Shown piece by piece: positions 8,088 through 35,000 of a DNA stretch of 64,000 nt. Numbering within the stretch: the stretch's first letter is position 1; each line of letters opens with the position of its first letter. A program made the translations under genes and the position numbers. The notes beneath the pieces are model-generated. The model made no database searches. It was not told the DNA's origin and saw only the letters and a list, made by a program, of their open reading frames with translations. Origin of the DNA: Lineus longissimus (taxonomy: Eukaryota > Nemertea > Pilidiophora > Heteronemertea > Lineidae); contig NC_088311.1 of NCBI RefSeq assembly GCF_910592395.1, positions 7,878,501 through 7,942,500 on the forward strand, given 5' to 3'.

Positions 8088-8309
8088 TTAAAGGGGGGCT
8101 ATAGGCAAAGAAGAGGGTTACATTGGCCATCTTCGGGTGATAAATATGCACAGTGAGGGCACTTGGGCATGTTTGATTCACCACTAAATATATTCCTTGT
8201 ACAAGCCTGGATAGTTTGGACATATAAACTGTCAGATGGGAGAGATCCCTATTGGCAACTTCATTTAACTTTATCATGCCTACTTTACTGCTGCCTATAG
8301 TCCCTTTAA
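8088..8309. mobile_element. TTAA-flanked MITE, copy 1
   Basis: Short element with TTAA at both ends (8088-8091 and 8306-8309) and inverted termini: aggggggctataggcaa on the left and, reversed, agggactataggcagcag on the right. It has no coding capacity. TTAA target choice and an AGGG terminus are typical of piggyBac-type non-autonomous elements. Related termini are seen at 14500-14719 and 58554-58698. Confidence 0.72.
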
Positions 8310-8865: not shown

Positions 8866-10980
8866 AACAACCATTCTTCTTTCAAGGACAAGACAGCTCA
8901 CTAAATTTCAATTTCAAATTTAAGTTTAATTTTTTTTAATTTTTGAAAATGAACGGAGTGAGTAGTCATTTAAGCTATCATTGTAGGATGCTATTTTCAT
9001 CATTTGACAAATTTATCACTGGCATGATGTGCTCTACTATTACCCGTTGAATAATTACAACAACAATAGATTAATTTATTGTCAATAATTACAACAATAT
9101 ACAATAATAATTAACATTACTTTACGCCTACACAAATTAACATAAAATGTGTAAGCATGTTTCCAATCAATAACTTAAAAATGTACAATGCATCAAAATG
9201 CATATTGAATGCAATTATATACTAAATAACCCTACATGTACATGAAAATAACTTTCAACAACTATACTTTGTACAATGTGATGATGTCTCAGGAATAGGA
9301 GAAATTTACAAAATGGTTAAAAAGACCAGTTTACACGATAATAACTTTGTGTTACATGTATCATCAACCTGTTGAGAATGTATGTATTTATGCCAGGGGA
9401 GAATGCCAGGCCTTCCAACTGCTGAGTAGCCAGCCCTGGGAAAGACCTGAGAGAAGACCAGGAAAATTTGAAAATTCCTTCATGCATATTTTGCAATATG
9501 TTGGTATCAGCAGAACAGATTGGTGATGCCTTAGACTCATGATGCATACATATCATAAAACCTACTTTCGTCAAACACTCCATGAATGCAATTTTTTCAA
9601 CATCATTGTAAAGCTTTCTCCTTTCTTAGCACAAGACAGCTCACTAAGTTGGGAAGCTGGACTAATTATCCAACATAGAGAAGGGTACCACTGCAAGAAC
9701 GGCTCTAACTCTTTCATTGTCTTGGCTTGGTGTCTTGTTGATAAAATAGTACATGTAAACATATAGAAAGAAAGAAATTGACAAGGTACACCTCGGGAAT
9801 GAGATATGTTGGTTTTTCATGGCTTCCATGGCTTCTTTTCAATTTCAATATTAAGTGGTCCCTATTCCAACATGTCCAATTAAAGGTATTTGAGAATTGT
9901 GGGCTCCGCCCTACTCTGAATTTTGTAGACAGATGAAATACTAATCAATTATATTTGATGAGATGAGATGAGAAAACATGAATGATTCAGACCAGTAAGT
10001 TGGACCTTAAGATAAACTATCTAACTAGAACAAGACAGGCATTAAGAAAATACACCCCACCTCACAATCAGAAATGTGGTAGGGGAATATATTGCCAACT
10101 TGCTCCATTTCCAAAGATGATGACCCCGCTTCCAATTCCTACGGCAATGAATGGAACCACATGATGACTTGCAATGACTGAGGTTAAAACAGGATGTTTC
10201 TAAATCGCCATGGTAACTACATACACTGTATACACCTATTGTGATGATGTCATGGGTACAGAAATTTCTCCATATGTATACTGGTCCAACGCTCCACAGC
10301 CCCAACATCTCAAGTCACGTTCCCTTTACAGGGAAATCTATAAATCTGAATGCTTTTTTCCAAGTGGCACTGTTTTTGACATCGGGTGCGTCTGGCTCAA
10401 CTGTCATTTCATAACAAAGTCTTATCACATTTTATCCAAGTTTAACGTCATCAAAACCTGAATTTTCCATCACAGACTAACACCAACACATTTGGCATTT
10501 TCACAAACGAATTCAAACATGGTCTTAACTCAATTCGACACGATGCACCCTTCCTATACATTTTTCAACTCCTCCTTCTCCATATCTGTTCCCCTTCAAT
10601 TAATCAACTGAATGTGGCCATTTTCTAATCATGATCAGGATTTCAATTGTCAAATCACTAACCCAAGCAACGAGTTTCAAGAGAACAGGTCCATAACTGA
10701 CCTGGCTCCTGCTACCAGGGCCCCAAGTTTTCAGTTTCCATGGATCTAGGCAGACAGATCACCTTGGTCACACGACCCTATTTCTACACCAGGCAGCTCA
10801 TGTTCATCCTGCATTGTGGACCACTCAGCATTGTCCGTACAGCTTACAACATCCTACATGTAGAGGCACATCTCTAAGTCTGAATCACAATTCCTGAGTC
10901 CATTTTAAACATTTCTCTGCTTTAAATGTCTATGTCACATCCGAATTCAGGGATAGGTCAGGTCACCCTGGAACCTCCCC
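8866..10980. other. PDE10A 3' UTR / convergent intergenic
   Basis: No exon found. The right part is probably the 3' untranslated region of the minus-strand PDE10A-like gene. No aataaa on the minus strand lies close to the stop, and the nearest candidates are more than 1.5 kb away. The segment around 9404-9440 (ccttccaactgctgag) is a dispersed repeat also found near 54546-54580. Confidence 0.4.
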
Positions 10981-11074
10981 CTAGCTCTCCTCAGCTTTCC
11001 CTTCCAATGCCTCTTTTGCTTCTCTATCCTCCTTGTGTTTTTCAGCTAATTCTTTCCATCGCTTCAGGTTGTCC
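10981..11074 (-). CDS. PDE10A: PDE10A-like exon 25, C-terminus
   Basis: 94 coding nt, acceptor gtttttgtag, stop TAG at 10981-10983. Encodes [20 protein letters not shown], then [11 protein letters not shown]. DNLxxWxxL is the last catalytic helix, followed by a Lys/Glu-rich tail shorter than the mammalian one. Confidence 0.94.
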
Positions 11075-14000
11075 CTACAAAAACAAAATGATGACAACAA
11101 TATACTTTCTTAAAATACATTCTTGACATGTAAACACAGCAATTTTAAAATAAAACACAAAAAGAAACCTTCCAGTAGACCTCCTGACCACTAGCTACTG
11201 AGCCACTAGACCACAGTGCTCGTGGGAAAGTTGATCGGGAACCAACAAGTAAAATGCATCCTTACCTTGCTCCTTCAACCATGGGTGTAGTCTCGGGCAT
11301 GACTAATGCCAACAGCTCATAGCATGGCAGGCAGATACCAACGATGAAGCCAACCTAGAAACAAACACAAAACGAAAGTGAGAAGAAGATTTTTCTCCAA
11401 ATAAAGTAAAGTAGCCTTTTTAGTACAATTATAGCCCCTCAAGAGTACAAAACAGCCGACAGCTATGCCTGTGGTCTTTTACTTTTGCTGAACACTCAAG
11501 CAGGCAGGTCAAACATTTTCTTAAGACAACTAGAGGCCTACTATTATTACTTATGAGAAATCCATGAAGATGGTTCAGTTAGTGATCAACGGTGCAATGT
11601 AAAACACAGTAGAAGCAAACCATGAACTACGATCAAAATTCAGTTCAAAACACAGCAGTAAAAATAGAAGGAACCAACACCAAAATGCAACTAAAGCAGT
11701 GAAGGGACAATAATTTCAGGAATAACGACCAATAAGCTTTGAAATGTTGACTTTAGTGATAACAGATTCTAAAATTACAAGGTTTGTGGAAATCTTTGAG
11801 CTTGTCTGCTATGCTAAAACGAAAAACTCAGACAAGATGCTACAAGGACATCTATGCATGATCGATCTGAATGACTCAATGGTCTGCCATATCTTCAATA
11901 TCTCTGCATGGCTGACATTATTGTCCCTTTAAGAAAGCACGGCTGACCTGCAAGTCTCACAGCCAGTTTTGGGAGGTGAAGCATGCTCAACACAACAGGG
12001 TTACAGGACACTTGCCATTTGCCAATCCCTTTCACCAACACACCTATTTTGAGAAATGATTTTTTTAAAAGTGTCCTTCCTGACAGTGATGGCTATTGAC
12101 AAATGGCAATTTGGTAAGGTAAAGTGGCACAATTATACACCCTGCAGTGTAGAAAACTGCTGCTGTACTCATTATTATGCACACAGAAGCTACATGTATA
12201 ATTGTACCACCTTACTTTACATGATGGATATAGCTACAGAAACAATGGATAAAATTATTTAGAACTTCCAGATTGTTTTATTTGTCAATTTTGATTTTAC
12301 GGTGGGAGGATCAGGAATAAGGAATAAAAAATATTTTTTTGCTTGGAGCTGCTCTCAAACACAGGCATTAAACATGTTTTTTGTACACTGTTTTTTCACA
12401 ACACTAAATTTAATATGTAGTTCATGCAGCTGGTTTAGTTTGGGTGTGAATACAATATCGAGTTCCTGAAAGCATAACATGGCATTAGCACAACTATAGT
12501 GTAACATTCATCCCCAAGTGATTTCAGTATTCCAACAATCACAAAGCTTATAAATGTATTCTTGAAACGCACTCTAGAAACCAACAGGAAGATGTGGGAA
12601 ACCGTTTTCTACCATAGGCTTTGACACAGCTGGAACACAATTACACGTTACGAAAATTCACCACTTTATTCAGGAATACATTTAAGAACAGTGTGTGTCT
12701 TCTTCTATGATCATCGAAAACCCAAAAATATACAATGTAAGGTCATGTAGAACAATTATAGCCCCAATACAGTTATAGACTTTGTGTGCATTAATGTATA
12801 GTGTCAGTGTTTTCCACACTGTAATAACTATCATTGTAGCGTGGCTATAATTGCACCAGTTTACCTTACAAATTTGCACTGAGTATAGACAACAACTAAA
12901 GCCAGCATGCATGTGCATGTACCTGCGATTCTGGAAGTTCATGGGCAAAGTCGCGATCCATCATACGAATTGGAGCCTGTCCCTGGCGTTTTTCCTCATC
13001 TCCCTAGCGAGGCCATGAGCAAAAGGGATTAGTGTTATTAGCCAAATTAAAGACAGACAGAAAGGCATGTTGGTCTTTGCATTGATTTTAGGGTCATGTT
13101 GGCACCCAGTTGTTGTATATATAAAAGTTTCCACATCATTAGAGAAAAATTCCAGACGTTTCTTTTTCCCAACCCAGTCCCAGGTCAAGAAATGTTTGCA
13201 ACTTCATCCTGTTATCCAACATGACCCTAAAAAGATTACAGCACCATGCACCGAAGTACTATTATAAAAAGTACACCAAGGTTTGGAAACAGGAACATTT
13301 TGGGCATTTCAGGTCCGATTTGGACACCAAATCAGATTTGGTATGTCGTAATGCAAAGATATTTTCATTCAAAGAGTTCTGCGTCATGGACAGTGGTCAT
13401 TGCCCCATGTTATATTTCCAAATCTTGGCGAGATGAGGTCATGGTGTGGTACAACTGGTACCTGGCTGTTGGGCAACTCGTCCGCTTTGTCACGGTCCAT
13501 CATAGCCATGGGTGTGCCTCCGTTACGCTTCTCCTCGTCTCCCTGTTCATGGCAACCGAAGTAGCGGAGTAAAAGTTAAGATATTTTGAATAATTAAAAT
13601 CTCAATTAATCGCAGCCATGGAAAAGTGATCCCGTCTTGTCTTGTGAGAACAAAATCTAGATAATACAATCAACAGAATTGACATTGGTCAGTCCTAGAT
13701 GTAACATTATTATTGCCATCCAAGCAAGTTGATTTCAGCATGTAAGACCACTGTATAAACAAATATCTATCATGCATAAACTCTGTTGAAATATTTAAAA
13801 CAACATAAATAGCTTGTTGACAACAGAATTGAAATATTGAATTGAAGATCCCTTACCTTCAATGTCTTCACTAAAACACTTATTCATGTAGATAATTTCA
13901 AAACATATCATAAACTTAAAGGGAACTGGAACCGCCGAGCGATTTATTCAACTTTTCGACTTTCACCGCCCGAGAAAGTCAAACTTCCAACTTCCTATTC

Positions 14001-17000
14001 GAGTTCAGATTAGTAGCTCTGCCCCCAGTGCCCGAGCATGCGCAGTTCAATTTGTTATTATTGAGAATCATGTGAGAATCACGTGAGTCATGCGATCTTT
14101 CATTCATGAGTTTTCGTAGTAAATTCCATAGTAGTGACGTCACTCAATGATTGACAGCTAGGCGCCATGTTTCATTAATGCCTCGTTCTGATCACCCGAT
14201 ACGTGGGAAATGAAAACGAGGTCATACGAACTGGCTTGGCGGTTTCAGTTCCCTTTAAATGAACTATCAAGCTTTAGAAACAACCTTACCTGTTGCCAAA
14301 ATTCCTCCATAATGATATGGACGACATCTTTCTGCATCTGCCAAGGTTTAAACATGGCACAAAGATCGGATGCTGTCATGCACAGCTCCATGATAAGGCG
14401 TCTACAACAAGAGACAACATCAAATCAGCATGCAGCGGAGGGAGAGGGAGAGGGAGAGGGAGAGGGAGAAAGTACATGCACATCATAGGACACTCATTAT
14501 TAAAGAGGAAATATGGCCAGGAGCCGAGTAGGTCAGATAAAGTTACACAAACACACAAATAGAGGTCTCTCCTATCTCACATTACATCAATCACGCTTGT
14601 ACATTGAATATGTTAATCCCTGAATTAAACATGACACAGTTCCCAAACTTTGCACAAATTAAGATACCCGAGTTGGATATGAAGAGAAACTTGAGCTCCT
14701 GCCCATAGCCCCCCTTTAACAGTTGCTGGGTCTAGACCTAACACCCAAAGAAGATGTGAAGTCTGACCACATGCAGTCAGGTGTCCGGAATCTTGGAATG
14801 GAGACAGAAAGAACATCAAAATGTCTTTGGGTACGATAACGGAGATGAACTGAAAACCACATGGACTAACAACGAATAAGACAGCTAGAATAGTATACAG
14901 TATGATAGCAAAACCCTCTCTTGCTGTGATGGGAATGCGAACAGGAATGAGAAACGTTCATGGCCGATCAGACCTCAGACAGGATAGCGCAATCCTCCCT
15001 AATATTCATACAACAAAAATATCAAGAAGGTCAACAACATCAAAACATATTTTCCATTCATTTGGGCTACAACATCAATTATCTTTTGTACCTGGGCATA
15101 GAACTCCTCAAAGATCACCTTGACAGTTTCACACTGCACTGTCCAAGGTTTGATACTTGCGCACAGATCACATCCAGTCATTGCAATCGCTTGCACTAGT
15201 CGCCTGATTGGCAGAAATTGAAACAAATTTTTAGTTTGATCGTAGGTCTGGAGAAATATTCTACAATGAATGTTTGTCTTTTGTAACTATCTGTGAAATT
15301 ACTTTATCTCTGAGAGCACCGGACCATGTCATCAGCCAAGAATAAAGTGTTCAGCAAATGAGCAATTTTTCTTCCTCCGACGGCAGTGTTAACATGACTA
15401 TTGCGACTGAAAAGCGGTTACTAACTGGTGAAGTCGCAATCTATTGTCACGTTGACTGGGCTGTGTTTTTGCTGAATGCTAAATGCGATCTAGTTTTAAC
15501 CAAAACTACATTCCATCATGTTATTTTCCTGCACTTACATGTTCATGTAAAAAGATACTTTGCAGTTTTTGCTTCCTTATATTTCTGCATATGTGTGGCA
15601 GCAACGTTACTTCTGGACTGTACTCTAACAGCTTATTGCCATGGCGATTGCTTACCTGTGTTCATCTTCTTCCCAATGGAACTCATTTTTGTCCACAATC
15701 TCGCGTAATTTGGCTCGATTTCCAAAGAAAAGGGCCAAGTCTGTTGCTAAGATGCAGTGGCGGATGTCACCGAGAACCTGCTTGTATTCATCTGAGGATA
15801 AGTGCTTGAATATGTTATGGCCATCGTGCTGGAATAGACAATGACAAGTTGAGGACAATGTCACAATCAGGCAAAGACAAATTGAGGACGACGTCACAAT
15901 CTACACTCAATTCGCACCTTTCCCGACGCAGGAATTTGTGACAGATGAAACTGGCCAATCAGAATCACTGTACTCAATCGTGGTGATGATGTCTGTGCCA
16001 AACAGGTTGATAGCAGGTCTGTCTGATTGACCAGAACACACAACCAGACATCCTGCATTCCTGCTTGAAGTGGTGAATATTTTTGATTTACAAAGGATCA
16101 GACAAATCCCAAGATAATGTAATAACCCCTCTTGACCACCTAGCCTTCAGCATAACAATATTCCTGCAGGCAGAGACTATTGGTATCACATGAATGAAAG
16201 TAAACTGCAAAGTTTACTAAACTTTGTGGATAATTTCGATACAAGAAGCAGATAATTCGCTTGGCCCCCCTCACATTTTGAAATCTTAGCCGAAACCAAA
16301 CCTAAGAAAGAATACTGAAAGAATACTGAAACCAAACATCTTTAGCAAGAATACTTAACAGTTGATATAACCAAAGCATACAACACACATGCCTCTCATG
16401 CAATAACAGAATGTTCCAACTTCAAGACGACCCCCCCCAAAAAAAATTAAGCAAGGATCCTCAAAGGACAAATCATCGGCTGATCTAGCTGATCCTTTGT
16501 ACTTTTCCATGAGCTTGCGTTGTTTTTGTCCACTATTGTTTAATCCACACAATATTTTGATTAATCCTGCTGATCTTATGCACATAGTTTTTGACCAGCT
16601 GATAGAGCTAGTACCTTTCACTGACATCACTATGAGCATGTGAAGATGTGCGCAAACTACTTTTTATCGATCGGGCATCGTAGATCAAGTAGTTTTTAAA
16701 CAGATCAAGCTGAGGTAGGCAGAAATGCCGCATAGATCAAGCTCTGGTAGGCTGATATAGCTACGATTTGGGCAAGATAAACTGAAATAGCTTGATCACG
16801 GCCAATGATCTGGTCCAACTGGAATCCTTGCCACATGGATAAATATTGCCCTAAGCATTTGTATTGAACAAATGTGTAAATGAAACATGCAATACACATC
16901 GTTCCCTTTGAGACATTCATGCACTCATGAAGCTTGAGAGACAGTCAAGTTATATCAAGGTACAGAATTGATAGGATGAGACCAGACATGAACAATGTGA

Positions 17001-20000
17001 TGTAATAGGAGAGACATTTCACTTGTTCAACTGCTTAACAAGTATTTAAAGTTATGGACTTGTTTCTGCAAACATTTTGGTAAGGGAGCAGTGACCCTGG
17101 CTATAACCTAACTAAATCATTCATTGGGAAATGAAATTAATTAAGGGAAGCGTGCAAAGCCAGCAATTTTGGTTGAAAGCGCATATTCAAGCGGTGACAA
17201 AATTATGTAGCATGCTTGTAATTGGGTGTGATATATATTTTCCCCAAAAAACACCCAGCCCTTTTCGATTTGAATGCTATGTGTACATATATTACTGTAT
17301 TTACATTACACATGTCGTTGGGTAGGGATAATATGGCACCATGCAAGCAGGACATCGAAAAAGCACAAAAATAGGAGAGAAAAAATGGGCTAATAGGGAT
17401 GTGGATGCCAATTTTAAATTTTAAATTGAGGGACATGTGGATCACAGGATTTTTAGAGAGCAAAAGAGGAGGATTATAAAGACACATAGTGGGGGATTAG
17501 GGAAGTGCCACCAGCCAAAAATTCTAACATTGTTCGTAATAGCGACTAAAACCAGCAAATCTATTAAAAGGTTAAGTGCAAATCATGATTTAATTCCCAG
17601 TTTACATTGAGAGTGTTGTGGACAAGATACTGTTGATTGAAAAAGAGACAGAATAACATGCAGGCACTCATCAGCTGTACTCGATTATAGTAACATACCA
17701 ATGATTTATGGCAATGCCATCGAATTCTGATAAAATACCATTTTGTAATGGTAAAATGCCATTGATTTATGATATAATACAGTTATTTATAGTACATGTA
17801 CATTGTATAATGCCATTAATATGATAAAATACCACTGATTTAAGGTAAGATAACATTAACTATGGTAAATGCCATTGATTCATGGTACACCATTGATTTA
17901 TGGTCAAATGTAATTGTTTTATGGTTGATAAATACACACATTACTTTGCTGTAAAAGTGTAATATCACTTCTGACCGGTTTTGATAACAAATCCACTTCA
18001 GTTCAACCAACAATCACATGCCCACATGGCATGCAGTTAAATAGTTAGCACAAAATGTAAACTGGCTTAAAGTGATTTGTCAGTGAACATCGTGATGAAT
18101 GATACTAATTTCTTACTTGTAGTACAGTGACAGTGTGATTAAAATGGTGGTTTTCCATGGGAGAGGAGGAGTATATAGCAGCTAGTGGGGACGAGTTACT
18201 CTTGAGAAAACTGTTAGTTTTGCCACGGTGGTCCACATCATGGCACAGACATGCAACAAAGAATGTTAGACACTGAAATGAGGAAAGCAGAATTACGTAA
18301 GAAAAGCATCGAGGCTAAGTTTTCCCAAAGGAAAGGTAAGACCTTGATTCCTTGTGGACTTGCCGAGGCAGAGCTAGAATTATCCCTCTACTAGTTTCCT
18401 GCGGGTGGCTAGGGCAAGTATTGCTTTGAGGAGTAAATGGAGACAGCAAATGGAACAGGACAGGAGAGACTTAACCAAGCTGTTAGTTGAGGAGAAACTG
18501 ATGCATAGCAACCATGGTTGCCAGGCAACAGTCGTTACTTGGCAACCAATTCAAAATGTCTTGGTAACAACCAGTAAAACGGTAATTACAGACGACTTGA
18601 GAAAAAACAAGTCAGGATCAGGTTTTTCTTTTTCAATTATAGATCCAACAGAATTACTTTTCAAAAGCAAAGAAGTAATGAACAATATTTATCAATTTCT
18701 TCAATATCCTAAGAGCTTGGTCTCGTTGATTGTATTATGAGGAAAGGAAAGTATTAATACAGGCTTTACCTAATTTCTGACCAGAGGAATTGAATGGGCC
18801 AAATGAGCTCAAGTTGAGCTGATTCTTCAAAGTTAAGCATGACTAGTAAGTTAGTTTCGTAAACTGTAAGACCATATTTTGGGTTTTTTCCCTTAATTTT
18901 TATTATCCTTATTGATCCTGTGGTCAGCGATTAGGCAAAATGATGATGAAAATGAAAGGACACAGCTGCATTGCCGCCTCGTCAGGCCAAGCTATTGAAA
19001 ATATCAACCGGTACCTGTAGTATTGTGACAGTTTGATTGAAATGATGGTGTTCCATGGTCGAGGTGGAATAGATAGCTGCCAGGGGTGAGGCGCTTTTGA
19101 CCATGAATGCATTTGTCTTTCCACGGTGGTCAAGGTCGTGGCATAGACATGCAACAAACAGGGCCAGGCGCTGAAATAGAATTCGACATGATGAATAAAC
19201 GTGGATTTTTCTGACTCGTTGATTGTAGTACTGTACGGGAGGAGAAAACCTGGCAATAAGGAAACCGACGCTGTCGAAAAGAGTCGCCCTCTTTATAACA
19301 TGAGTAGCAGGGCGACCTGGAATCGAACTCGGGACATCAGGGGTGACAGGAGCTGATTTTTTTCGTTGCGTCACTCCGACAGTCAGTTTATTTTGGCTAT
19401 TAGTGCAATGCTTTATGCTTTGGATAACACCATTGCCGCAAATTGAGTGCCCCCCCTCCAAAATTCAAATGTTTGATTTCTCGAAATGTGAGTTTTCTGT
19501 TCCTTGGATGCAATTAAAAAGAGATCTGAAATAAATGCCACAAAAATTAAATGATTGCAACTTACCTTCATTTCATCAATGCTGGTCTGATATATATACA
19601 TGTATCCAAATGTTGTTTTTTTATTTATTTTCACCAAAAATGTAATGTCACATTGTGAAATTAAGAAGCGTGAACAATTCAACTCTAATACATGTACATT
19701 AACCATTATAATAAACACCACATCCTATATTTAGTCAAAGCCAATTGAAAATTTAACAACTTTTAGCTTCACATATATTTAACAGTTTTGACATGTGTTT
19801 GACAGTAAATTTACAAGAAGTTTATGAAGATCAAAGTAGGTTCTATATTCACAGTTTTCTTGAACTTACTTCTAGAGGAGTAAAAGTGTTTTCCGTGGTT
19901 TTGATGACGGTAAACATGGCGTGTGCCACGGAGAACGCATGCGCCCAGTTGTGGTAGGGTACATTCCGGTAGTTCTTCCGTACGGTTAATGTAAACCGCA

Positions 20001-23000
20001 TTAAGCTATCCAGCTCGAACCTGAAGAAACAATAGGGGAAAAATAGTACGACTTTTGAGACCATGATGACACAAGTTCAATGTTCACATGTAAGCTTTAC
20101 GGCAAATGTAGGGTGGGTCACAAAAAAACAAGTTCAATACCAAATATGAAATCGTACAAATGGTACAAAGGCTACACCTCTCATATTTTTGACAATATTT
20201 ATTTTATCTTTGCCACATGCATTGACAATCTGAATTCCATAAATCAAGTATTGGGAAAATAATAGCTGTTGAAGTTTTACATCATGATGGCAACTACAGC
20301 CTACACTAATCCTACTGCAGCAAACAGGAACATCATGAATCATCGAATGGAATGACCCCAACACGCCTTAAATCCACTTCCAGTCATTTTGGGAAAGATT
20401 AGTAAGACAGTTGAGAGGAAATCACGAGTTTTTCTTGCGGTTATAAAAAGGTTTGTTTAACCGAACTCACGGACATCTGACCATTGGGACAGAGTTTATT
20501 TAGTTACGATTTCCTGCGTGGAATATGTTAGCAGAGAAAGACAATCAAGAGAACTATTAATCTGACCCACTTGACTCCAGCATCTAGTCCCCTTTAAACC
20601 TACCATCTCAGTGTTATAAGACGTGTTTGAAACTATATAATTCTAAATAGTCAGAAATACGCATACAAATATATCTCAACATATGCATACAAATTTATTA
20701 TAGTTAGTTGCAGCAACAAGCACAGCTAGAAGCAGACTATGATAAGGCCAGCACACTGATGAAACAAATGTGACATTCATGTACATGTAGCTCCAATGTG
20801 TTTGGGTTATAACATGGCTAAATCACGAGTGTTTACATGGCTTCATATGCATCTGTTTGAATTTGTTTGAGTTATAACATGGAAAGCATGTGTTTGTGTT
20901 ATAATGTGACATTGTGTGTTTGTGATATGACATGGAGTGTTCTTTATAACATGGCATGCATACATTTCTGTTATAATGTTGTATGCATAGTGCTTGTAAT
21001 ATAACACAAAACGAACTGTTCTCTGAAACAATATCATTATCATTCAACAATCTTGTGTTACGTTGATCGGGAAATTCAGCGACGATTCCGATGAAGACAA
21101 TCGTGTAGCAATCGGAGATCAGTTGTGCTTTAGGTAACATGCAGATACATGAACTATGGGAAAAGGATTCTGTTACCACCACCTATAGATTACTATGTGC
21201 TGCTTCAATGTTCATGAATTAGCCTGTCATCTAGTTGACAATTTGCATATCAACATAAAAGGGACAAAAATCACACTGGTACCATGACTTAAATCAATGA
21301 GAGAAACTTAATTTAATCCCAATCTCTCAAGGCCCTGGATTAAGTGACGGATATGTGCATCAAAGCAAGAACTGCAGGGCTATCAGGTAGTACTTAATAT
21401 TTACAATAGCAGCAAATAAATTTGAAAAAAACTTGTCTATTGCCTGGTTCAACCAATTGCATAAATCAACCAATTTACTATGTTTCCGCTGGGCAGCTAT
21501 ACGTCCACAGTACTGTATATAATTTCTTACTACCGTTTCAATCAACCTTTTGGTACATGTTTGACATTTTTCGTCAAATCGTCTTGCTGGCTTTATCATA
21601 GTAGCTTAATTAATTCCTAATTAGTTTAATAAAACACCAATCTGGATAGTTTTCTTCGTCGAGATTATATATGTCTACACTTTGTTGTTATATACTTGAA
21701 CCTCTTTTTAAGGGCCTACAAGCATATACACTCTATCAAGTATATATACCTTTCTTCATTATCTGGGTCCCTAGAAATGACGAGAAAAAAATGCGTCGCT
21801 TGAAATTTCTAAAAAGTCAACATCATTTTGAAAAACCTCTTTAATGGGGAATACGAAAAGTCCAGGCTAATTCAGGAAATTCAAGCCAGAGTTATGTTGT
21901 TATTATTTAAACGTTAAAGGGATGAACTCATGTTACTTCACAGTCCAATGAGAAATTCATTGTCTTTCCTCTTCTCTACGATAAATTTGCATGCAGTTAC
22001 AAATATTTTTACTAACTTCAGCCCCATTCACAATTGACATCCGTCCTACTTCCCATCAGTGACGGGCGATGTACGCGCGTGTTGCGCGCCAATGATGCCC
22101 TTATCTCTCTATGTTTCGCATAAATTACGTGCGCCCTACACGCTGAGTAGCGCGTAAATGCCGCAATTTACGGGACGTCAATTGTGACTAGGACTGTACT
22201 ACATGTAATTGACTTAAACTCCTATAACTTCTAGGACTTCACAAAAATATTAAACGGCCTATAGTTTGACATACAATACGCTGAAAGCAAAACACGTCAT
22301 AAAGTGCTGCACACAACATTATGGGCTATAAATAGAAACAAACATTGTCCTAGGGCAGTTATATGCACACCAACCCAATGAAACTTGGCATTTCGAGTAT
22401 TCGTAATATCAGTGTACACAAAGGCACTGTTGCTGAAATTTATACTTAGTGTGTATAATTATGCACAATGGAAAAGTTTCAAATTCAAGTTAAATTTTCA
22501 AATTTTGGACAAATCGAGTGCAGTAGACCTTTAACACTGGAGTGTGAAAAGTTGCCAAACTGTCTCGCACAGTGCGAATTTATCTCAGTTAAAGAAAGCT
22601 GTGATTGCGGTGTTACGGTTTTAAATTAAGTCAGCCAAAACCTCAATTATAAATTCTTTAAACTACACGAACTTAAATGACTTGTATATAGAACTGTGAA
22701 GAATTCGTTTGCAGGTCATGAAAATTTGAGGTTTACGATTTTCTTTTGGTAGAATGCAAGTCATCAATAACTAAAAAGTACCGGGTAGCTATGATACAGC
22801 AATAATAACTCATTTTGAGGACCCTACTTTATACAGAATTTACAATTACTCCTTTAATGGAATGCAATTCTGAGAATTCACGGTTACTCCTTTAACTGGA
22901 CGTAACTGGACAACCAAATTACCCATGATCTGCTAACGAACGTGAAATAAGTGCTAACAGTAACGAATCAAGTGATTTCAGACAAATTAGCATAAGAATA

Positions 23001-26000
23001 ACCCTACCTGATTGGTTTTTGTTGGTCATTACTGAATATCAAAGTTAGGTTACATCAGAACAACGAAAAGTTTCTTCTTTACAAGAAAGAGTTCATAATA
23101 AACAGAAAAGTTTCTTCTACACAAGTTGTAATGTCAGAAACATTTCTTTTGCAGAAGTTGTTAATGGTAGAACAACAGAAAAGTAACAATTGCGGGAAGA
23201 TAATTTCCTCTGCAGATGGTACATTTGTAGTAATCCATCAGAAGAACTATATTCGGTGCAGTAAGGTTGCATTTAGAATGCTTTGGATTTTCGAACAAAA
23301 TAAAGCAATCAGACAACGGAAAATATAACTGAAATCATGTCAGACTGAGGCAATTGATTCAAAGCTTCACGAAAGAGTTGCAATCCATTCTAGACAGAAA
23401 CTGAACATGCAGTAACTGACCATTAGACTTACCGCTGCATTCTGAACAAATCCTGGAACATGTAGATCACCACCAATGGTTTGTTATCACCGTCGATGGC
23501 CCATGGCGAGAACTGGTACCTAAAAAGTGGGAAAGTGCATTGGTGTAAAAACTGATAATGGGTGCATGGGGGACCAACTCAAACATTACCATGGGCACTG
23601 CGTTGGCCAGGGAATGGAGTGTTGAATTTTTGCACAGGTCTTAGTTTCACGACAAACCAGATCGTCACGAAAAAGCAAAATTAAAACACTAGCAATATTT
23701 TCTGGTTTACAGTATATCTCATTTTGCAAATGAAATTTCAAATTTATTCAACGTTTTAGAATTGTAATGCCGTAATAAAGGAATTTTCGACCATGGAATT
23801 GTGGTTACTTACGAGCAGATTTCTGGCATTTGTTCTGGCAGGTGTTTTGACTTGAGCGCCCCCAACTCCTGGTCTGAACACTGACTGTGGTATGACAGCA
23901 CTTCGAGCGCTACTTTGTACTTTTGCTCGGAGCGGCGGATCTTCTCGTAGAGTTTGGCGTGGTGGAGGGCAAGCCCGCAGTAAACGGCGAACGTTTCGAA
24001 GGACTCCTCGTCCGATGTGTTGAAGGTACCGTGTAGCTTGTTCACCATCTGTACCACACCGATGATGCTGGAACAAACACAATCATCACGTAAAAGTTTA
24101 GGACTTATTCGCATCTCAAATGATGACACTCGGGCCCGGTTATTCAAAGCCTGGTTAGTTTAGTGGGGGAGCCCTTGCGATTTGGCTATAGCGGTGACCA
24201 CACCAGCAGCTAAGCCCAACTATTCATGCCAACGGAGGAATCTCGGAGGCTACCAAACCAGATAGCAAAGCTTTGAACAAACGGGCCCAGGTGTCCCCCT
24301 CCTTCAGCCTGTCACCTATAGAGTTTGAAGGGAGGGGTATAGGCATGAAGTAGATGGTCCAATTTGTGGTCTCCAGATGCTTTTTGCAGTAAGAGGGCCT
24401 TGTTTGACTCATTCGTGATGCAAGCAAGTGCTCATACAAGTGGGAATATAACTGATGTAATGTGAGATAGATACTTTGGTGACTATGTATTTCTTAACCT
24501 GGCCCACCTGTCGTCTGCCTATAGCCATCTCCCTTCAAGATGACAACTCAACACCAAGTGTCTCTTTAATAAACTAATCAAGACAGTTAAAAACAAGGAG
24601 GTTTTTTGATGACAATTCCCTAGTAACTCTATCATCCAACAACCAGAATCACAAGGACTGCAACACCAGAGAGAAGAAATGTCTTTTTACCTTCCCTTGA
24701 TGAGGATAGGCATGCAGAGTATTGTTGTCGTAGTATAACCAGTCTGAAGATCAACATCCCTGGAAGGGAAATCAAAGTTATACAGGTATACATAGTTTAA
24801 GGACATTATGAGGGCAAAGATGACAAAAATGCAGGACTTTGCAGCACAACATGGAAGCAGTGTTTGACCTTGCAGGTCAATAGATCGTTGCAGGGACGTT
24901 GTGACCTCACAACTTGGTGTGTCAAGATGCTGGTACCGTACTTAGGCCTTACCTGTTAAATCTTTCATCCTGGTAGGCATCTGGAATATTCAACGTTTCC
25001 CCTGTTGAGGCCACATGACCAGCTATGCCCTTGTCCATGGGAAACCTAGCAGAGAAACAGAAATATTTTCAGACGGATGCAACACCCTAATCCGTCATTT
25101 ATTACCACATCAAGCACACACCAGTCAAAACAAGCCAAATATACCTGCAAGTTACAAGGATCTTTAACTTAAGCAAACAAGACGGTTTGGCAAGGTAGCA
25201 TCTGAATGAAGAAAAGATTTGACTTTCTCTAATATCTACTGCTCTTCAGATTCATTTTCAATTAATCTACAAAATGTATGGTAAGGTGGTACAATTATGG
25301 CCTGTCTATTTGGTCTCGGCGGTCTATCTCTGATGAGTAACTGGGCACAGGATGACTGCCCAAGTTGCCCTCGTCTTTTCACTTACAACAAATCCATGCA
25401 TATCCTAGTAAGACCCAGCAATATAGCAGTGGCCATAGCTACGATAGTAGCCCATTCGCACCACCAGGGGGCAAAGATGGAGTACCTGCACAACTCTTAT
25501 GAATGATGACACTAATATTCTAACAAGAAGGTGACACTCACACCGTGCAACAAATGATGGAGAGGTAAATTTAGGAACACAGAAAATACCATGCAACTAA
25601 AGCTGGTGCTCTTCCTCAACACTGATAAGCATTCAGATAAGTAAAATCAGCATACATGTACAAAGATAGTTCAATCTTATTTCAAGCAGAAGAAGCCCAA
25701 GCCTATTTACAACACTGCCTCACATGTAAACCTTTCTAACCTAATTCCCATATCAAAATTTTGGGATATGTGTGCCAAGTTGGTGACGAAATTGTAACTC
25801 ATCGCTCTTTCTTCTATGCGGTTAGCCTAAAAAGCTGATTCCAACAAAAGTGACATCAGTGACTTCAAAGTACATGTAAGTGCTCTGGAGAAAAAGTGGA
25901 TAGTGACAAAAACGGTACTTTTGTCCACAATTAGCTAAGAATCTGCCCAAATCACAATGTACACCTCTGACCCAATTAGAGAGCACTTTTGACTGAGCAG

Positions 26001-29000
26001 GAAACAAATATGCTAAAATTCCACTTCCGTTTTCGTGATGTGGTTTATCTTTCAGCAGGCACTGCCTGCTTCGTGAAGCCAACAGTTCAAAGCAAACTCA
26101 GATTGTGACAAGCGGTATTTCTACTAAAAGCAAGACCACGATAGAATGCGCAAACCTGATTTCTTTGTCGCACTGTAAGCCCGCCTCTTCCGATTCATCG
26201 ATGTTACCCGTGTCGAAGATGCGGGCATACAACTCTTGCGAATGGGGATCGAGTAGAAAGAGCGATGCCCGGTCCGCATTCACTAGTGTTTTCGCATAAT
26301 TCTGTTTGAAAAAGATTAAAGGAGACAAAATGCAGAGGTGAAAAAAATCATGCAAGAACAGACATGCAAAGGGGGGCAACTGCAACCATAAAGGGGTTGA
26401 TCCATGACTAACGAAATGCTGATGCACAAAATTTAAAGGTGAACTATAGTTTGGGATTTAGGGGATGAAAAACATGACATACACCAGGTTCAGACAATTT
26501 ATTAAACATGTTCCCACATGCAGATTCTAACAACAACTCAAAAGTCCCATACACCACAAATATTTGACTGGCATCATGTGCTCAAATGACTTAGTTTTTT
26601 CTCATCTAGTTTTAAGTTTTTGTATTCCCACAATGCTTATTATGTGGCTACAGGATCTTCCAAAATTTCAGGTGAGTTGGCGGCCATTTTGTATCTTGGT
26701 GGCCATTTTTGAATGCATACAGAACCCAGTGTGTCCCAAGCTGATATGAGAGGCTGTTTTAGATGGTACATTGTTTATACAAAGCAAGTTTTTTTCATTA
26801 AAAAGGAAAAAGCCCAAAGATCAACACCACAAGTTTAAGGTAAAAAGTAATTAAAAATATCAAAAACAATGTGCTGGTCTTGCAAGAGAAAAGTGTACCA
26901 TCAACTAAAGTGCATCAAATCTAACATTTTTAAGTGCAGAAAAACCCCCCTGATAAAAGTCAAATATTTGAGGTGCTTTATATCAAACACAGATAATAAA
27001 AGATAGATGAAGGACAGGCCCAAACCTGATTTCCTTTTTCTGACTAGTCTCCGGCTGAGGTCCGAGACCATTCCCTATGTCAAATATCCGCGCATACAAC
27101 TCACGTGTTTGATAATCGACTAGGAATAATGACGCTCGGTCGGCGCTCACTAATTTTTGTGCATAGTTCTAGAGAGAGGAAATGGGGATATTTCAAGTTA
27201 GGGAGCACTCTAAAATTTGTGTCTCGGTAAACCACAAAATAGGAGACATTGTGGTACGGAAGAACATAAACATGTAAATCCTTTTGCTGCGGTAGCCATT
27301 TTCGGGCCAACACCATCTTGCGCTGACAGTGGATACCAATACTGAACAGAGCCGCTTACTTTTATCTGAACGGTCAAAACTCATCAAAAGTGTCGCCATC
27401 TAAACTATTAAGATGAAAGAAAAATCCCCAAGTGCATTTGGCACGTTTAGATAGGGTTTGCCCAAGTGCTGGGCATGACGTGCCCTACATACGTCACCCG
27501 CACTTTACAAGGCGGGGAACATGACGTGCTATGCCCATCACCTGCAGCAAAAAGGTTAATATAACTCTTAGACAGAAGTCAATCACTTATTCACCCCATG
27601 TACAAATTAAACCTTTATCGCACTGGTGAATAAGAGGTTTAACAGTAACAGGCCGATAGTTTAAAAGTGAGTTCTCCTTAGGATTTGATCAACTTTACAG
27701 ATTAATCGAAAACATGATACTAATTAACTTACCATGATCTTCATGATGACCATGTCCATGCTCACAATGTCTTGAAATATTGACCTAAAAAAATTATGAA
27801 TGAAATGAAAAGTTGACCAAGGGAACTATGAGCCATCAAAGTATCAATGGTGGACATACCCGTTGAGTTCAATACAAGGATATCACAGATATCTGGCCCT
27901 GACCTACTCAAACCCTGGTTCAGAGGTCACCAGGATATTGCCCAGACTCAGTCTTCTGCTTGGTTTGTGAAGTGGTTCAAATAGGGATCTCATCAGAATC
28001 ACATTGATCCTTTGGTGGCAATTCCTTAAGGATTTTTTTCAAATATTTCAAGGAGTACTAAGAATTAGTAACTTACTTTGTGACAGCCAAGAGAAAATCG
28101 TTCAACTTTCTCTGAGTGGTCATGCTGTGATACATCTGGAACAAATATGAAAATGTGTCAGTTTGGATGGAAAATTCGAAAGAAAGGCCGATATTTCTTG
28201 TTTAATTGAAAATTTAAAAAATATCTTTATAATCCTATAGTATTAAAGTGCCACATACAGCAAAGGTGTGATTCAACAACAGCGGTTTACATTTAGAGTT
28301 TTGCCACTTTCACAGGCTTTGGAGTTATTTATCATTGCTGAGCCAATATCTTACAATGAAAATAATCCAATGCCCGTGAAATTTGCATGGTTCCCAGTTT
28401 CACCGCTGTAGTGGAACTATAAGCGTAAGGGTACAGTAGGTTGAAAGTCACAAGTTGGTACAGACAGAAAGTGTTGGAGTCAACGAATTATCAAGTCTCC
28501 ATAAAGTGTGTCTCCCTGCTTTAAGATTCTCATCCACTCTCTGATGCTTTGATAGAGTGTAGGAAGAAAGTGGAAAAGGAGGGAAGGTTTGAACAAAATG
28601 AAAGAATTTGAAAAGGTAGGGAAGGTTAAACCTCACAATTGACCCTACACAAGGACATTAAATAAGTAAGGACGCCACAAAAAATAGAACACTAACACAG
28701 CACAGGAAAGACACTTTTATGTATTACAGAAATTGTGTTTGATGAAATAAACCTTTGTACTCAACAGAGTCCTACAAGAAAACTATCCAGATGCCCACTC
28801 TTTAGTGAGAAGAACTGGATCTCCATTGCTAGTCCATTGTGATTGAATACTTGTCCTTACACTAAAGACTTTCAGGAGGTCAGCCGTGGACAGAGACAGG
28901 AGCCTCCAAGTGTCATTCACCTATGATTAGTGGAGGATGGAGGATGGTCAGCTGATGTCATTAGAGTGACTTCCTTCAGTCAGTGTACTGAGGATGTCTT

Positions 29001-32000
29001 TTTTATAGTGCAAGGATGAAATATTTACAAGGTAAATTTCTGAATGTGATAAAAGATATTTCATCATGATCATGACCACTGAAAACAAAATAACGTTTTA
29101 AGCCTGAGTATGTGCAGGGGGCATGCTATTATTGTGTGTGCTGGTGGTTGGAGGAACAGCTACTATGACTGCAACCACAGCAACAGGGACAATCACTAAA
29201 ACAGAATGAAAACGCATTAAGGTCACCAATACAAATGCTCAAGTCATTTTAAACATAGTACGATGCCATTTCAAGGCACAGAAAAGTTCATTTGTCAAAC
29301 TACTTCCAGCTCATTACCGCTGTATTTTGGACATTGAAATGAATCGGTCAAACCAATTTCAAAATCACAATTTTGATTTATCAATATCCTGCTACATTGT
29401 CCACCAGATGGGACGCATTCTATTTTAGTCGAACCAATAAAAGCCATTTCATTATTCCAATCTCATCAATACCATCCAATATTGTAGCATTTGCCATGGC
29501 AATCTTGCAATAAGATGGGGAAAATCATATATACGTACTCTTAAATCACTATTAAACAGTGGTCCTGAATTTGATAAGTCTACTTTCTTTGGACCATCCA
29601 ACTTTAGCCATGAATCCTTTGCCACAAAAAAGGGCATTGGGGGACTACAGGCAGGAGTTAGTGGTCAAATTGGTAGTCTTCTGGTGATCAGTATGCTTCG
29701 ATGTACTGTGAGATATGAGAGACCCCTACTGGCAACGTTGGGTAATTTGATCTGACCTATCTGGGTCCTACCTATAGCGCCCCTTTATAAAGTTTGTTCA
29801 AAAACATCAGATTTCAGGACCATCATTCAAAAGTAACTCAAAATGTCTAAAACCAAGGCATCTAACACCAAATGTGGTAAAATGGGACAAACCTCCTCTG
29901 CATTTGATTTCTACGAAAAATGACAGACAAATGACAAACAGTTAGAAAGTTTTGTGGGGGCTAGGGAACAATTCTGAATGCTAGGAAGACTATATGGACA
30001 CATAAACAATCGCATAAGAAATTCTATGCTTATATTTTTTCTAGCTTTATCACTGTAAATAAGTAGAAACCTTTGTTTTCTTGAACTGTCAACGAAAATT
30101 TATTTCAAACCTAGTGCCTGGTTGTCTGATCGTTGTTTTTATGCATGTAACATGTGTAAGAAGATATCATAAACACACAATCCATATTTATCTAGATTCT
30201 CAAGTCCATAAGATATAAATTTATTTTCAACAAACTAGATTCTTAAGTCTAAAAGATATAAATTTATTCTAGCAACAACTTCGTTAAGAACAATATACTT
30301 ATACACATTTATGCCACACTGAACCACCATCAGCAGATTACATTTTACATGTAAAGAGAATTTTAGCCCATCCATAAGACAGAAAAAATGATCAAAATAA
30401 TGAAAATAAGGTTTAAACACAATCAGTGAACTTCAGTGCAGTACAGATAGTCTTAATTGATTTTTGGTAGACATATCATGGCTTTAAAGAATGTAGTTGT
30501 CATCAAAATTTTAATTAGAATATAAGGATGGATGCAGCAAATTCCCCATCATTTCAGTTTCTTATAGTGCCGATTAGGTCTAAAGTTTACTTTGAATTTA
30601 TCATGTGGTTTGACATATGTACACAAGACAGTGCAAGATGGAAGAGAAATCAAGTGAATATATCATGAAAGTGCCACATGCAGAAGGAGTGGAAAAACTG
30701 TACAGAAATACAAAACGATTGGCTAATACCTAAAGGAGTATACTCGAGAATGGTACATTAAACCAACTATTCCCCCAAGGGACTGCCAAGTACCCAAGTA
30801 ATTGAGGCAGAAAGCTTCGACTCAAATTATACCGAAATGACACAAAATGAGCACAGCCTCTTTAAGGTAAGGTAAGATGATACAATTATAGCCTCAGTGT
30901 GCGCCAATATGTAACACCAGTTCTTTTCAACACCGTTGGGTTATAGTACTTTGCTATAAACGTACCAATTTACCTTAATCAGTAATGTTTGTGAAAACCT
31001 TGTTTTTCACCACTCCTGGGGATTTTTAAACTCTCCACCCGCAGAAAAAACCAAAAAAAACCCGAAAAAACCCTGTGTTCTTCATTCTAGGGACAAAGTG
31101 GCTCTTCGTCCTTACAAAGGAGACACAAATTAACAACGAAAAAATAGATAATCATTTCATGCATTGAAAATGTCATTGACGTTACCTCAGCATAGTACAG
31201 CGCTATTGTTCCCCAAACTAGGTAGCTGCTACAAATCTGGCGGGGAAAAAGCAATTAGCTAATGTTAGTATGTGATATCATGTTAGATGGAAGGCAGTAT
31301 TAACTGTTATTCTGAAAGCCAGCCTAACTTCACAATACATGTACTTACCTGTGAAAAATTTGCTAAAATACAATGCTTTTTTCACCAAACTAGGGTGGAT
31401 CAGTACAATTCTATATACAAAGGAGGTGTGTTTGTTAGTAATGAGCTACCAGATCGGATGGGAATATTTTTTCTTCGATGAAAATTGACATTTCAATTAA
31501 AGGCTCCATTTATTAAAAAATTTGAAATTTTAAATAGAATTCAAAAATTTCTAATCAATCAAATAAATATATTCATGTACTGAACTGATAAATACTATGA
31601 ATATCAAATTTCCGCAAATTTGCATGCATTATAACTGCAGAGACAATGTTTAAATAATGGCCTTTGCCTTAAAGGAGGCTTGTAGCCACTCTTCTGGGAA
31701 GCATTTAAAAATGTCAATCTGTTAGCTCGTTTTTTTCAATATCAAATTTTTTAAGAGGCGAGGTTTGGGGATGCGTCATGGCGAGTTTGAATAAATCAGA
31801 GCCGAAATAATCAGACAAATCAATGCGTCAATGAAGTGTATCATTTTGATAAAAGACATTCCCCATTCGCTAGTATTGACTTTTATGTATATTTCTGCAA
31901 AGGTAATATACTTAATATGCCTGAGAAAATTTTTCAGAAAATATACTTGTCTTCTGGTTAAGACAATTCAGGTTACATGTATGCCAAATATTTGGTCTAA

Positions 32001-35000
32001 TGTCTTTAAACAAAGCCTGCGTGCACCAGTATTTAGCGATATATAAGTGATTTTGTCACTCAAACCTCGGATGTAAATTCAATAGAGTAGACGCATTTCA
32101 TTAAATAAGTCCATTAAATCAGAGAAATTACTCGCTAATTACATTATTCCTGAGACTATATCACCTAATGAGCTTTGGAGCTGAGAAAATTTTTCAAATA
32201 ACCAAAATTTTCCTCCATGGAATAAGAAGCAATTGTACTAGGAGCTGAAATAATTTGGCTTATTAGGTCTTTAACGCATGAAGCATTGTGTATTGCACGA
32301 ACAGCAGTAAGTTTTGTCTTGACCGTCTGGCTAAGAAAGGAGGGTGAAAATAAAGCATCTAACATAGCAATCATGTTAGACGCATTCTGTTTTGGCACTG
32401 GCAGGGAAAAAAGGCCAGATTTATTTCTGGTTTACCTCAGCACATTGGACGCCTACTTGTCCCCATATTATGTAACTGCTGGTGATCTAAAAAACAGAGG
32501 TTAGTTAGTCAGCACAACAACTAATTATTTGATAAGGGCTGAGCCTATTCGATGCTGGCAATTTGAAACAAAATGATAAATGATAATCATAAGTGTTGCA
32601 TAATGGATAAAATTGCAAAAACAGATAGATGAGGATTTATACCAAGTTGGCATTGCTTAATTTCATCAAAGAACGAAAATGAAGATTCCAAAATGACTGA
32701 TTTGCGATTTCATTAGTTTCAAATTCTCAGCAAAAGCCAATTTATGATTAGTTGTTACTGCATTCTGCAACCCAAACATTTGGTAAAGCGTTCCAAGGGA
32801 CAAAGCAGTTCCTTGAGGAAGCTTTCCAAAACATCCACCTCACCTCAAGAGGAGCAATGCCAACTGTACATATGCAGTGTGATTGTGTGTTCAAATGTAC
32901 AGTTGACACTATCAACCAAGATGAGATGGACAATGTGATGCAACACTTTACCTCATCTAACTTTAATACCAACTGACTCCACATAATATAACTGGCAGCA
33001 ACCTGAAGACATACACATAGAATTCAGCAAAATCGGTTGAGAAATCGAAACATGTTCTTATCTTCAAGTTGGAGCTTCAGTAAAACTATCAATTCAAAAG
33101 TGACAAAGATTTCTTCTCCAAAACCAATGCAGAAGTTAACCTGAGATTTTTATGTCGATCAGAGCAGAAATCTGTGGCTACAAACCAAAATTGTCAGACT
33201 AGTGTTTCATGAACCATCCAGGTCTATCAAAGGTACTGGCTTCACTTCGTCATAGCTTCAGACTTCTACCCCAGGCTGATATTCAAAGATGCCTTTTTGA
33301 AAACCGTGTCTATGCTATTTTTCATAAAGTATATTGGGTGTGGTACATTGCCCACTATGCTATCACCCCATAAGATATAAAAGATATCGCAGGTAACATC
33401 GTTTTCATGACAGGCTGTAAATTTGGTCTGAGGACCAGATATTAGCTTTTGGCACGTACAGTTCCTTTTATAACAATCAAGTACCTTTTTCTTTTAATGA
33501 AATGGAGACATTAATCCAATGGTAAGCAACTAAGATCATGAACACAAAAACAACATGACATCATAAAGCTTTTTAACAACTTTGAACTTTCCATAAAAGG
33601 TATATATTCATTTTTCGATCATGTTTTTTTCTTCATCATGGAGGTAGGAAATGCTTAGTTGAACTTACTTCTTCATCTTCCTCTGCAAACGATGGATTCC
33701 CTGCAGTCCGGTACAGCTCTACCACCCCTGAAGAAGAAGAAGAAGAAGAATATAATCAGTTACCATTTACAAGAAACCCAGTTCACTGACAGGAAAACCT
33801 CACGTCCACTGGTGATGCATTGCACTAAGAAACTTATCTGAAGTTGGAATGGGAGTCAGGACACTGTGAAACCTCTTTATTGCCCAACTTCCCAATACAA
33901 GGAAAATGGCCTCGCATAATCAGCAATGATATTAGCTGCGCTTACACCACGAAATATTGGTGGACCAATTGCACTTACACCACCACATTGCCGCGACAAA
34001 TTGGTTCGGCAATCCATTGCCGATACAAATTGCCGAGCTAATTTGTCCCACCAAGCTTGATGGTCCAAATTCGCCCGGCTTGTTAAAAGCTCGGCTTTGT
34101 CGTCGTGTACGCGCAAATGGATCGGCAATTAGCTAGTTAGATGGTTCGGCTCCAGGCGGCGCTTTCGAAATGGCGCTTTCTGCCAAGGCTTTCCGCGTTC
34201 TGCTTATTGTTTGCGCGCCATCTGTAGCCGGATTTTATAACTAGCTGCAGCGCTGGTGTAAGCGCTTGGTGGATTTTCGATGGTGCGGCATTGGTTCCCG
34301 AACCAAGATTGGTGGTCCATTTTCAGGTGGTGTAAGTGCGGCTATAGTTGATGAAGACTGAGGTATGGATGACCTAGGTATTGAACACCTTGGTATTGAG
34401 CATTTTGGCATTGATTGTCTTGGTATTGAACCTCAATATCCAATTAGCAATTTGGCACGCATGAGATGTGTCAATCAATTTCTATCAGGTTACTAAGGTT
34501 TTCAATAAAATGATCCGGGGAGAGATGCCAGCAGATGAAGCGGAAACTTTTAGAGAGTGAATCCTCTGATGGAGAAAATGCTATTTCTGATGGCTGGCGT
34601 CAATGAGGGACTTTATCAACAAAAGATGGCAGCAGTAGTTACCGGTCAAATACAGTACAGACTCTCTTTGTTGGCGAACTTGAGGAGGGACTGGAAACTA
34701 CTGCCTTTGCCTTTGGGTCATAAGGTTCCTCATTAAAGTGGCATGCTTCATGATTGGAGATGGTGTAACCCACGTATCTACACCAGGAAATTTATTCAAG
34801 GTAAAACATCAAACAGTTCCTGACCTCCGGCAGAATGTAATAACTAAATCAAGGCAACCAAAACTTGTGGAGCAAGACCGAGCAATTGTGTCTTCAGACT
34901 CAATTAACTATCTAAAGACAGAAGTGAATTGAGTTAATTGTGAGAATGATGACCTACCTACAACTTCTCCATTCGAGTGTGTGATAGGCTGCGCTAATAC

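Follow-up and report, generated by a model that had tools for sequence, protein, structure and literature searches.

The question raised by the 64,000-nucleotide (nt) stretch of Lineus longissimus contig NC_088311.1 analysed here (the window) is whether a single phosphodiesterase gene can be spliced into many different enzymes. The window carries on its minus strand a gene of the PDE10 type in which five exons, numbered 11, 14, 20, 22 and 23, occur as tandem copies, exon 11 three times and each of the others twice. We think it probable that one copy per cluster is normally used and that many enzymes are made in this way from one gene. PDE10 phosphodiesterases hydrolyse cAMP and cGMP, their GAF-B domain binds cAMP, and PDE10 is a drug target.

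Gene identity and location

The reading frame of the gene is open from exon 10 to a stop codon in exon 25. The exons were first located with segments of human PDE10A and PDE5A, and each was then fixed by its splice sites and phase; exon ends are given in window coordinates, and all exons are on the minus strand, so that transcription order is that of descending positions. When 7978 database candidates were scored, 3014 matched (the best 120 are listed), and the top match is P0001, the "probable 3',5'-cyclic phosphodiesterase pde-5 isoform X4" of L. longissimus, which stands for a cluster of 20 member sequences in one contig. Residues 66–913 of X4 are placed in the window by exact peptide matches, with the exception of residue 252, whose codon we take to be split by an intron, and these matches indicate that the window is the X4 locus. 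X4 residues 1–65 have no match within the window; the X4 start probably lies beyond its edge.

The domain order of P0001 is GAF, GAF, PDEase_I (Pfam PF01590 in two stretches and PF00233 at 272.6 bits). The catalytic domain assembled from b copies throughout aligns with human PDE10A without gaps over 262 residues and scores 294–299 bits with PDE10A chains in the PDB, compared with at most 236 bits for PDE5-type chains, and the best PDB match of GAF-B with exon 14b is also PDE10A (2zmf, 215 bits; the next is 182.5 bits). One result counts against this assignment: the top PDB match of the whole core is PDE5A, among the best 60 of 164 matches, which include no full-length PDE10A chain. By best match of the catalytic and GAF-B domains the gene, "pde-5" in RefSeq, appears to be of the PDE10 type, in agreement with an earlier reading made from the DNA letters (below, the sequence-only reading), which had called it PDE10A. 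Metal-site residues are present in every copy (HDLDH in 20a, HDVDH in 20b, and the metal Asp in both 22a and 22b) and the pocket Gln ends both 23a and 23b; we presume that these His, Asp and Gln residues have the roles that such names imply.

Five clusters of tandem exons

An AG acceptor precedes all 22 exons from exon 10 to exon 25, a GT donor follows all 21 that need one, and within each of the five clusters the partners are equal in phase. The three copies of exon 11, which encodes the linker segment between GAF-A and GAF-B, are each 51 nt long with phase 0-0 and lie at 32952..33002 (11a), 32436..32486 (11b) and 31186..31236 (11c). Exon 14, a segment of GAF-B with phase 0-2, is present as 14a (27026..27168, 143 nt, signature Q..FDIG) and 14b (26156..26301, 146 nt, signature K..FDTG). 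The other three clusters lie in the catalytic domain. Exon 20, the metal-binding segment (156 nt, phase 0-0), is found at 19015..19170 (20a) and 18117..18272 (20b); exon 22, which carries the metal-binding Asp and the pocket helix (112 nt, phase 2-0), at 15092..15203 (22a) and 14290..14401 (22b); and exon 23 (81 nt, phase 0-0), which in both copies ends in a Gln aligned to PDE10A Gln726, at 13462..13542 (23a) and 12923..13003 (23b). Besides their splice sites, 11b, 14b, 20a, 22b and 23b are supported by exact matches to X4, 22b and 23b by PDB alignment, and 22a by its place in a tree (see below).

Hidden Markov models (HMMs) of the individual exons 10–24, built from homologs with P0001 excluded, were scored against 3844 open pieces from both strands. 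Two strong matches each were obtained for exon 14 (2.5e-26 and 5.1e-22), exon 20 (3.3e-38 and 1.1e-31), exon 22 (3.5e-24 and 2e-22) and exon 23 (5e-16 and 1.3e-15), and one strong match each for exons 10, 12, 13, 15–19, 21 and 24. The exon 11 HMM matches 11c at 3.1e-8 and 11b weakly at 0.038; 11a is supported by its splice sites, place and phase and by a homolog in the nemertean Tubulanus (P0004, VAASHLLWSHLALKCEE, 10/17 residues identical, by eye). When the 48 one-per-cluster combinations are each read with every microexon (see below) in or out, 384 of 384 remain open and end at the same stop. We thus find support for five small duplications of exons in tandem, separate from one another, whose copies can be spliced and are under selection; a single block duplication was rejected, the exons between the clusters being single-copy by HMM.

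The sequence-only reading had described the same copies with equal phase, with exons 12, 13, 15–19 and 21 single between them, and both statements hold; the limits it gave, 12923–33002, coincide exactly with the positions where 23b ends and 11a starts. Its figure of 96 predicted enzymes is not supported, as X4 residues 1–65 have no match in the window and three microexons were overlooked, and the two start exons that it proposed were not confirmed, the X4 start having no match there.

The single-copy exons, each located by splice sites and HMM, are exon 10 at the end of GAF-A (33669..33727, matched also by X4), exons 12 (28077..28135), 13 (27733..27784), 15 (24953..25045), 16 (24691..24759), 17 (23813..24067) and 18 (23433..23519), exon 19 at the start of the catalytic domain (19870..20020, supported also by PDB alignment), and exons 21 (15656..15828) and 24 (11266..11354). 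Exon 25 with the stop codon (10980..11074) was placed by splice sites and the X4 match. Three in-frame microexons, none with a GTAAG donor, were placed by their matches to X4: KSNAEE (29893..29910, 18 nt) in the linker before GAF-B, and NDQQKPI(R) (23008..23031, 24 nt) and DPDNEE(R) (21750..21770, 21 nt), both between GAF-B and the catalytic domain.

Divergence and constraint of the copies

Residue identity between copies is 29–47% in exon 11, 61% in exon 14, 71% in exon 20, 49% in exon 22 and 70% in exon 23. By the Nei-Gojobori method, the seven copy comparisons give proportions of nonsynonymous differences (pN) of 0.16–0.45 and of synonymous differences (pS) of 0.55–0.93. The synonymous distance (dS) is saturated (infinite) in five of the seven; it is 2.83 for 20a/20b and 1.01 for 11b/11c, which is the youngest pair. 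Second codon positions are the best kept in all seven comparisons and third positions match least in all seven (with a tie for least in 11b/11c), and many identical residues are specified by differing codons (16/28 in exon 14, 20/37 in exon 20, 9/18 in exon 22 and 12/19 in exon 23). Columns that are at least 95% conserved among homologs are kept in both copies of exons 14 (18/18), 22 (11/11) and 23 (7/7), and 20a keeps 25/25 of those in exon 20.

The copies are thus constrained, and unused duplicates so old should not look so intact. Frame, splice sites and, apart from four changes in 20b, conserved residues are intact despite high silent divergence, and the copies are therefore unlikely to be unused. 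A comparison of dN with dS had been proposed by the sequence-only reading as a check; pN against pS speaks for constraint, with dS saturated to the extent given above.

Reading frame and splicing signals

In clusters 14 (143/146 nt) and 22 (112/112 nt) inclusion of both copies or of neither leads to a premature stop, and this frame lock therefore makes a one-of-two choice likely at these two positions. A one-of-two choice is probable at 20, and a one-copy choice is open at 11 and 23. X4 carries exactly one copy per cluster, 11b-14b-20a-22b-23b, a mixture of first and second copies, together with the three microexons.

The donors of the copies differ from those of the constant exons. GTAAG begins the donor in 9/10 constant core exons and in 2/11 alternative copies (Fisher p=0.0019), and if nine upstream exons are added (5/9 with GTAAG, by eye) in 14/19 versus 2/11 (p=0.0068); this comparison was conceived after the sites had been seen, and the p-values are descriptive. 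Exons 14a and 14b have the same odd donor, GTTTG, and the microexon donors are GTTTG, GTAGG and GTATA. Steric exclusion by a short intron between copies was considered and rejected, the spacing between copies being 458–1199 nt.

We propose that the spliceosome would normally take one copy per cluster, so that scaffold and catalytic machinery would be common to all products. What would vary is the linker from GAF-A to GAF-B (11), part of the cAMP-binding GAF-B domain (14), the segment that binds metal (20) and two catalytic-domain pieces near the substrate pocket (22 and 23). At 14 and 22 the reading frame would enforce the choice of one of two copies. At 11, 20 and 23 exclusion, if any, would come from regulated use of splice sites, and the weakness of the 5' splice site in most copies may be a sign of this; at 11 exclusion is probably not strict. 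Under this proposal every copy would be used, the choice among copies would be regulated, and it would have a biochemical effect.

Copies in other animals

Proteins of other phyla include both the a and the b type of exon 14, and likewise of exon 22. In a tree of exon 22 (49 rows), 22b falls in a 22-row clade with Tubulanus, many molluscs and a rotifer (support 97/83), and 22a lies outside this clade, nearest to Owenia and Penaeus; Mytilus edulis isoforms straddle the branch, P0018 being inside the b clade and P0039 outside it. The approximately unbiased (AU) test rejects a tree in which 22a and 22b are forced together (p=0.0198). For exon 14 the b clade has support of 80/96, and a nemertean-only duplication, with 14a and 14b together, is not rejected by the AU test (p=0.129). 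The two trees use 33–38 columns and a simpler model, with the mixture off, and the exon-22 tree was already known when the AU tests were made. The rotifer is among the b types in both trees, as is a bryozoan for exon 14; with such placements in such short trees, the events are therefore not dated more closely.

The exon-22 tree would put the duplication of this exon before the nemertean-mollusc split. That the exon-14 duplication is equally old is less firm, and is suggested by the 80/96 branch and by gastropod models that contain both types in series (among 56 protein rows listed, P0001 included, exon 14 occurs twice in Nucella P0042 and in Biomphalaria P0057 and P0071).

The residue that closes exon 23 (PDE10A Gln726) varies among other animals. 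It is Gln in 72 of 130 proteins and Glu in 42, with 16 giving no pattern match; 37 of the Glu proteins have mollusc names and five are unnamed (examples are P0013, P0018 and P0030). To our knowledge this glutamine is invariant in phosphodiesterases. The distinct Glu segments are closer to 23a than to 23b in 24 of 25 cases. A search for Gln copies in molluscs found only Crassostrea virginica P0040, which has the Gln version, and Pinctada P0008, in which a Gln copy is followed by a Glu copy. Molluscs may thus swap Gln and Glu in exon 23 by splicing.

We note that the Strongylocentrotus model P0002 repeats the stretch of exons 19–21 in series, the repeats being identical by eye; this may be a fault of the assembly or of the model, or else a block duplication that arose separately.

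Alternative explanations

A number of observations weigh against the strict choice of one copy per cluster, and they bear mainly on clusters 11, 20 and 23. The exons of these clusters (51, 156 and 81 nt) are divisible by three, and the frame stays open when any of them is skipped or doubled. When exon 11 was compared over protein rows P0001–P0100, it was found doubled in the models of Tubulanus P0004, Dreissena P0011, Patella P0025, Saccostrea P0031 and Mytilus edulis P0038 and absent from Mytilus edulis X19 (P0039) and from P0082, a shorter protein; likewise the Pinctada P0008 model has exon 23 twice, in series. Exons 11, 20 and 23 might then be in-frame cassettes that are used singly, in series or not at all, and so act as length switches, for example of the linker at exon 11. 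We regard this as a serious possibility, if a somewhat doubtful one: models may misjoin exons, although the pattern of series copies recurs across species, a doubled exon 20, with its 52 extra residues, should disrupt the catalytic domain, and most of the protein rows listed contain a single copy. A scan for intron-intron pairing also lends no support to exclusion enforced in this way, since in this single species one of 18 pairs was above all 60 controls, which were first-order Markov resamplings rather than exact shuffles. The sole helix above the controls joins 27692, in the intron preceding 14a, to 25275, in the one following 14b, and so spans the whole of cluster 14.

Other adverse points concern whether all copies are used. 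Six of the 11 copies, 11a, 11c, 14a, 20b, 22a and 23a, are not seen in X4, the one visible L. longissimus protein isoform, and 11a is absent among the seven exon 11 HMM matches listed. Exon 20b is the weakest case among the copies. It retains 21/25 of the columns that are at least 95% conserved, the four changes being conservative to moderate, and a segment of its type was not found elsewhere (30 matches from 34 candidates, the best 75% identical versus 71% for 20a) in a search that was weak, with only 34 candidates, P0001 not returned and members hidden by 90% clustering. Such observations would suit extra copies that are relics, spliceable in appearance and unused or included as rare noise. 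We think this very improbable, given that silent divergence is high or saturated and yet frame, splice sites and conserved residues are intact save for the four changes in 20b, and that other phyla have proteins with each type of exon 14 and of exon 22. That the copies are an artefact of assembly, such as a second haplotype left unpurged or a gene duplicate that was collapsed, is a general possibility for which we found no specific support, and its probability seems to us negligible: residue identities of 29–71% with high silent divergence are far beyond haplotype divergence, and single-copy exons stand between the clusters. Haplotype or assembly duplication was rejected on this divergence of the copies. 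The L. longissimus assembly report describes 79-fold PacBio long reads and the identification of haplotypic duplication (PMC8593623).

The choice of one copy per cluster remains the explanation that we favour, in a form less uniform than the sequence-only reading had given it. Mutually exclusive splicing, which that reading proposed throughout, fits the frame-locked clusters 14 and 22 and fits less well at 11, 20 and 23, where skipping and doubling are in frame and, for 11 and 23, series models exist elsewhere. Its combinatorial use of copies lacks support in the form given, a single L. longissimus isoform (X4) being visible. The comparison with relatives that it recommended, made here on proteins, found that other phyla have both the a and the b type at exons 14 and 22, and it also found the series or missing exon 11 of some models.

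Predicted differences between the protein products

Two PDE10A inhibitor papers name Tyr683/Tyr693 as a selectivity-pocket residue and Gln716/Gln726 as the glutamine that inhibitors contact (PMC12982385, PMC5748027). When the a copies are set against the columns in which the PDB alignment places the b copies, 22a has Phe and 22b has Met at the position of PDE10A Tyr693, and both 23a and 23b retain the Gln at position 726. By counting from these anchors, 23a would have Ala and 23b Arg at position 702 (human Pro), and at position 708 (human Lys) 23a would have Lys and 23b Phe; we take both positions to be pocket-lining.

For GAF-B, a docking paper describes Cys287 as important for cAMP binding and Asp305 as touching a ligand docked in the cAMP site (PMC6151459). 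Both positions, counted along the GAF-B alignment, are within exon 14. Both copies have Ala at position 287 and retain Asp305, after which 14a has Ile and 14b Thr. The differences between copies may alter the handling of ligand or substrate.

Other repeats in the window

Outside the exons described here, positions 2000–8100 of the window form a dense repeat block with families about 0.9–1.1 kb apart and tandem units of 212 and 108 bases, and positions 52281–52826 hold a tandem array of 6.5 copies of an 84-base unit with a higher-order period of 252 bases. A self-comparison of plus-strand frames, which was not used as evidence, returned mainly the repeats at 2–8 kb and 52 kb and, in addition, pairs formed by the antisense of the exon-20 and exon-23 copies.

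Relation to known genes and significance

In the open-licence literature, judged from listings, no paper was found on a phosphodiesterase or PDE10A gene with mutually exclusive, tandem or duplicated exons. As far as that literature reaches the gene is new to print; its kind, a gene with several clusters of alternative exons, is already known, and public isoform models exist. The belief of the sequence-only reading that no such phosphodiesterase had been described agrees with those listings and has to be qualified for public annotation, which already models isoforms (X4, in its 20-member cluster).

The closest parallel is the muscle myosin heavy chain gene (Mhc) of arthropods and lophotrochozoans, which has several clusters of mutually exclusive exons, with seven clusters in Capitella Mhc and two to four in several mollusc genes (Kollmar and Hatje 2014, PMC3912159). 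Like Mhc, the PDE10-type gene is one enzyme gene in which separate clusters of small diverged exons are spread across the catalytic domain. Unlike Mhc, it belongs to another enzyme family, the choice of PDE10 copies would alter a regulatory ligand domain as well as the region of the catalytic pocket, in two of its clusters the reading frame locks the choice, and exclusion in it may not be strict. Insect Dscam1, which has four clusters of mutually exclusive exons, is similar in that several exon clusters in one gene are combined into many isoforms. It differs in encoding a cell-surface molecule rather than an enzyme and in having far more copies per cluster than the two or three found here.

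Mammalian PDE10A is not known to have more than one version of any of these segments. The L. longissimus gene is like human PDE10A in its domain order and in the best PDB matches of its catalytic domain and GAF-B, and unlike it in that two or three versions exist of the segments for the linker, GAF-B, the metal site and the pocket. It resembles spiralian pde-5/PDE10 proteins (of Tubulanus polymorphus, Mytilus edulis, Crassostrea virginica and gastropods), whose isoforms have exons 14 and 22 of type a or type b and exon 11 in one or two versions, and the exon arrangement thus seems common to spiralian PDE10 at least in part. Compared as proteins, the other spiralian PDE10s differ in that no 20b type was found among the 34 candidates of the search with 20b and in that most of the mollusc proteins compared have Glu, not Gln, in exon 23.

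A wider proposal, which we think unlikely to be right as a whole and offer as speculation, is that spiralians run cyclic-nucleotide breakdown through one splice-programmable PDE10, the exons of which would set the GAF-B response and the pocket in a cell-specific and coordinated manner. Some of these exons would predate the nemertean-mollusc split, and the replacement of the purine-binding, otherwise invariant Gln by Glu in mollusc exon 23 would give either enzymes with a changed nucleotide preference or decoys without catalytic activity.

If the copies are used as predicted, the gene would provide a natural matched set of one phosphodiesterase whose members differ in short pieces of the linker, the ligand domain and the pocket. 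Such a set would allow a direct test of the control that the linker and GAF-B exert over activity and of which pocket residues set the nucleotide and inhibitor selectivity of PDE10. Part of the arrangement may be older than the nemertean-mollusc split, and a signalling enzyme would join myosin and Dscam among the genes with several clusters of alternative exons.

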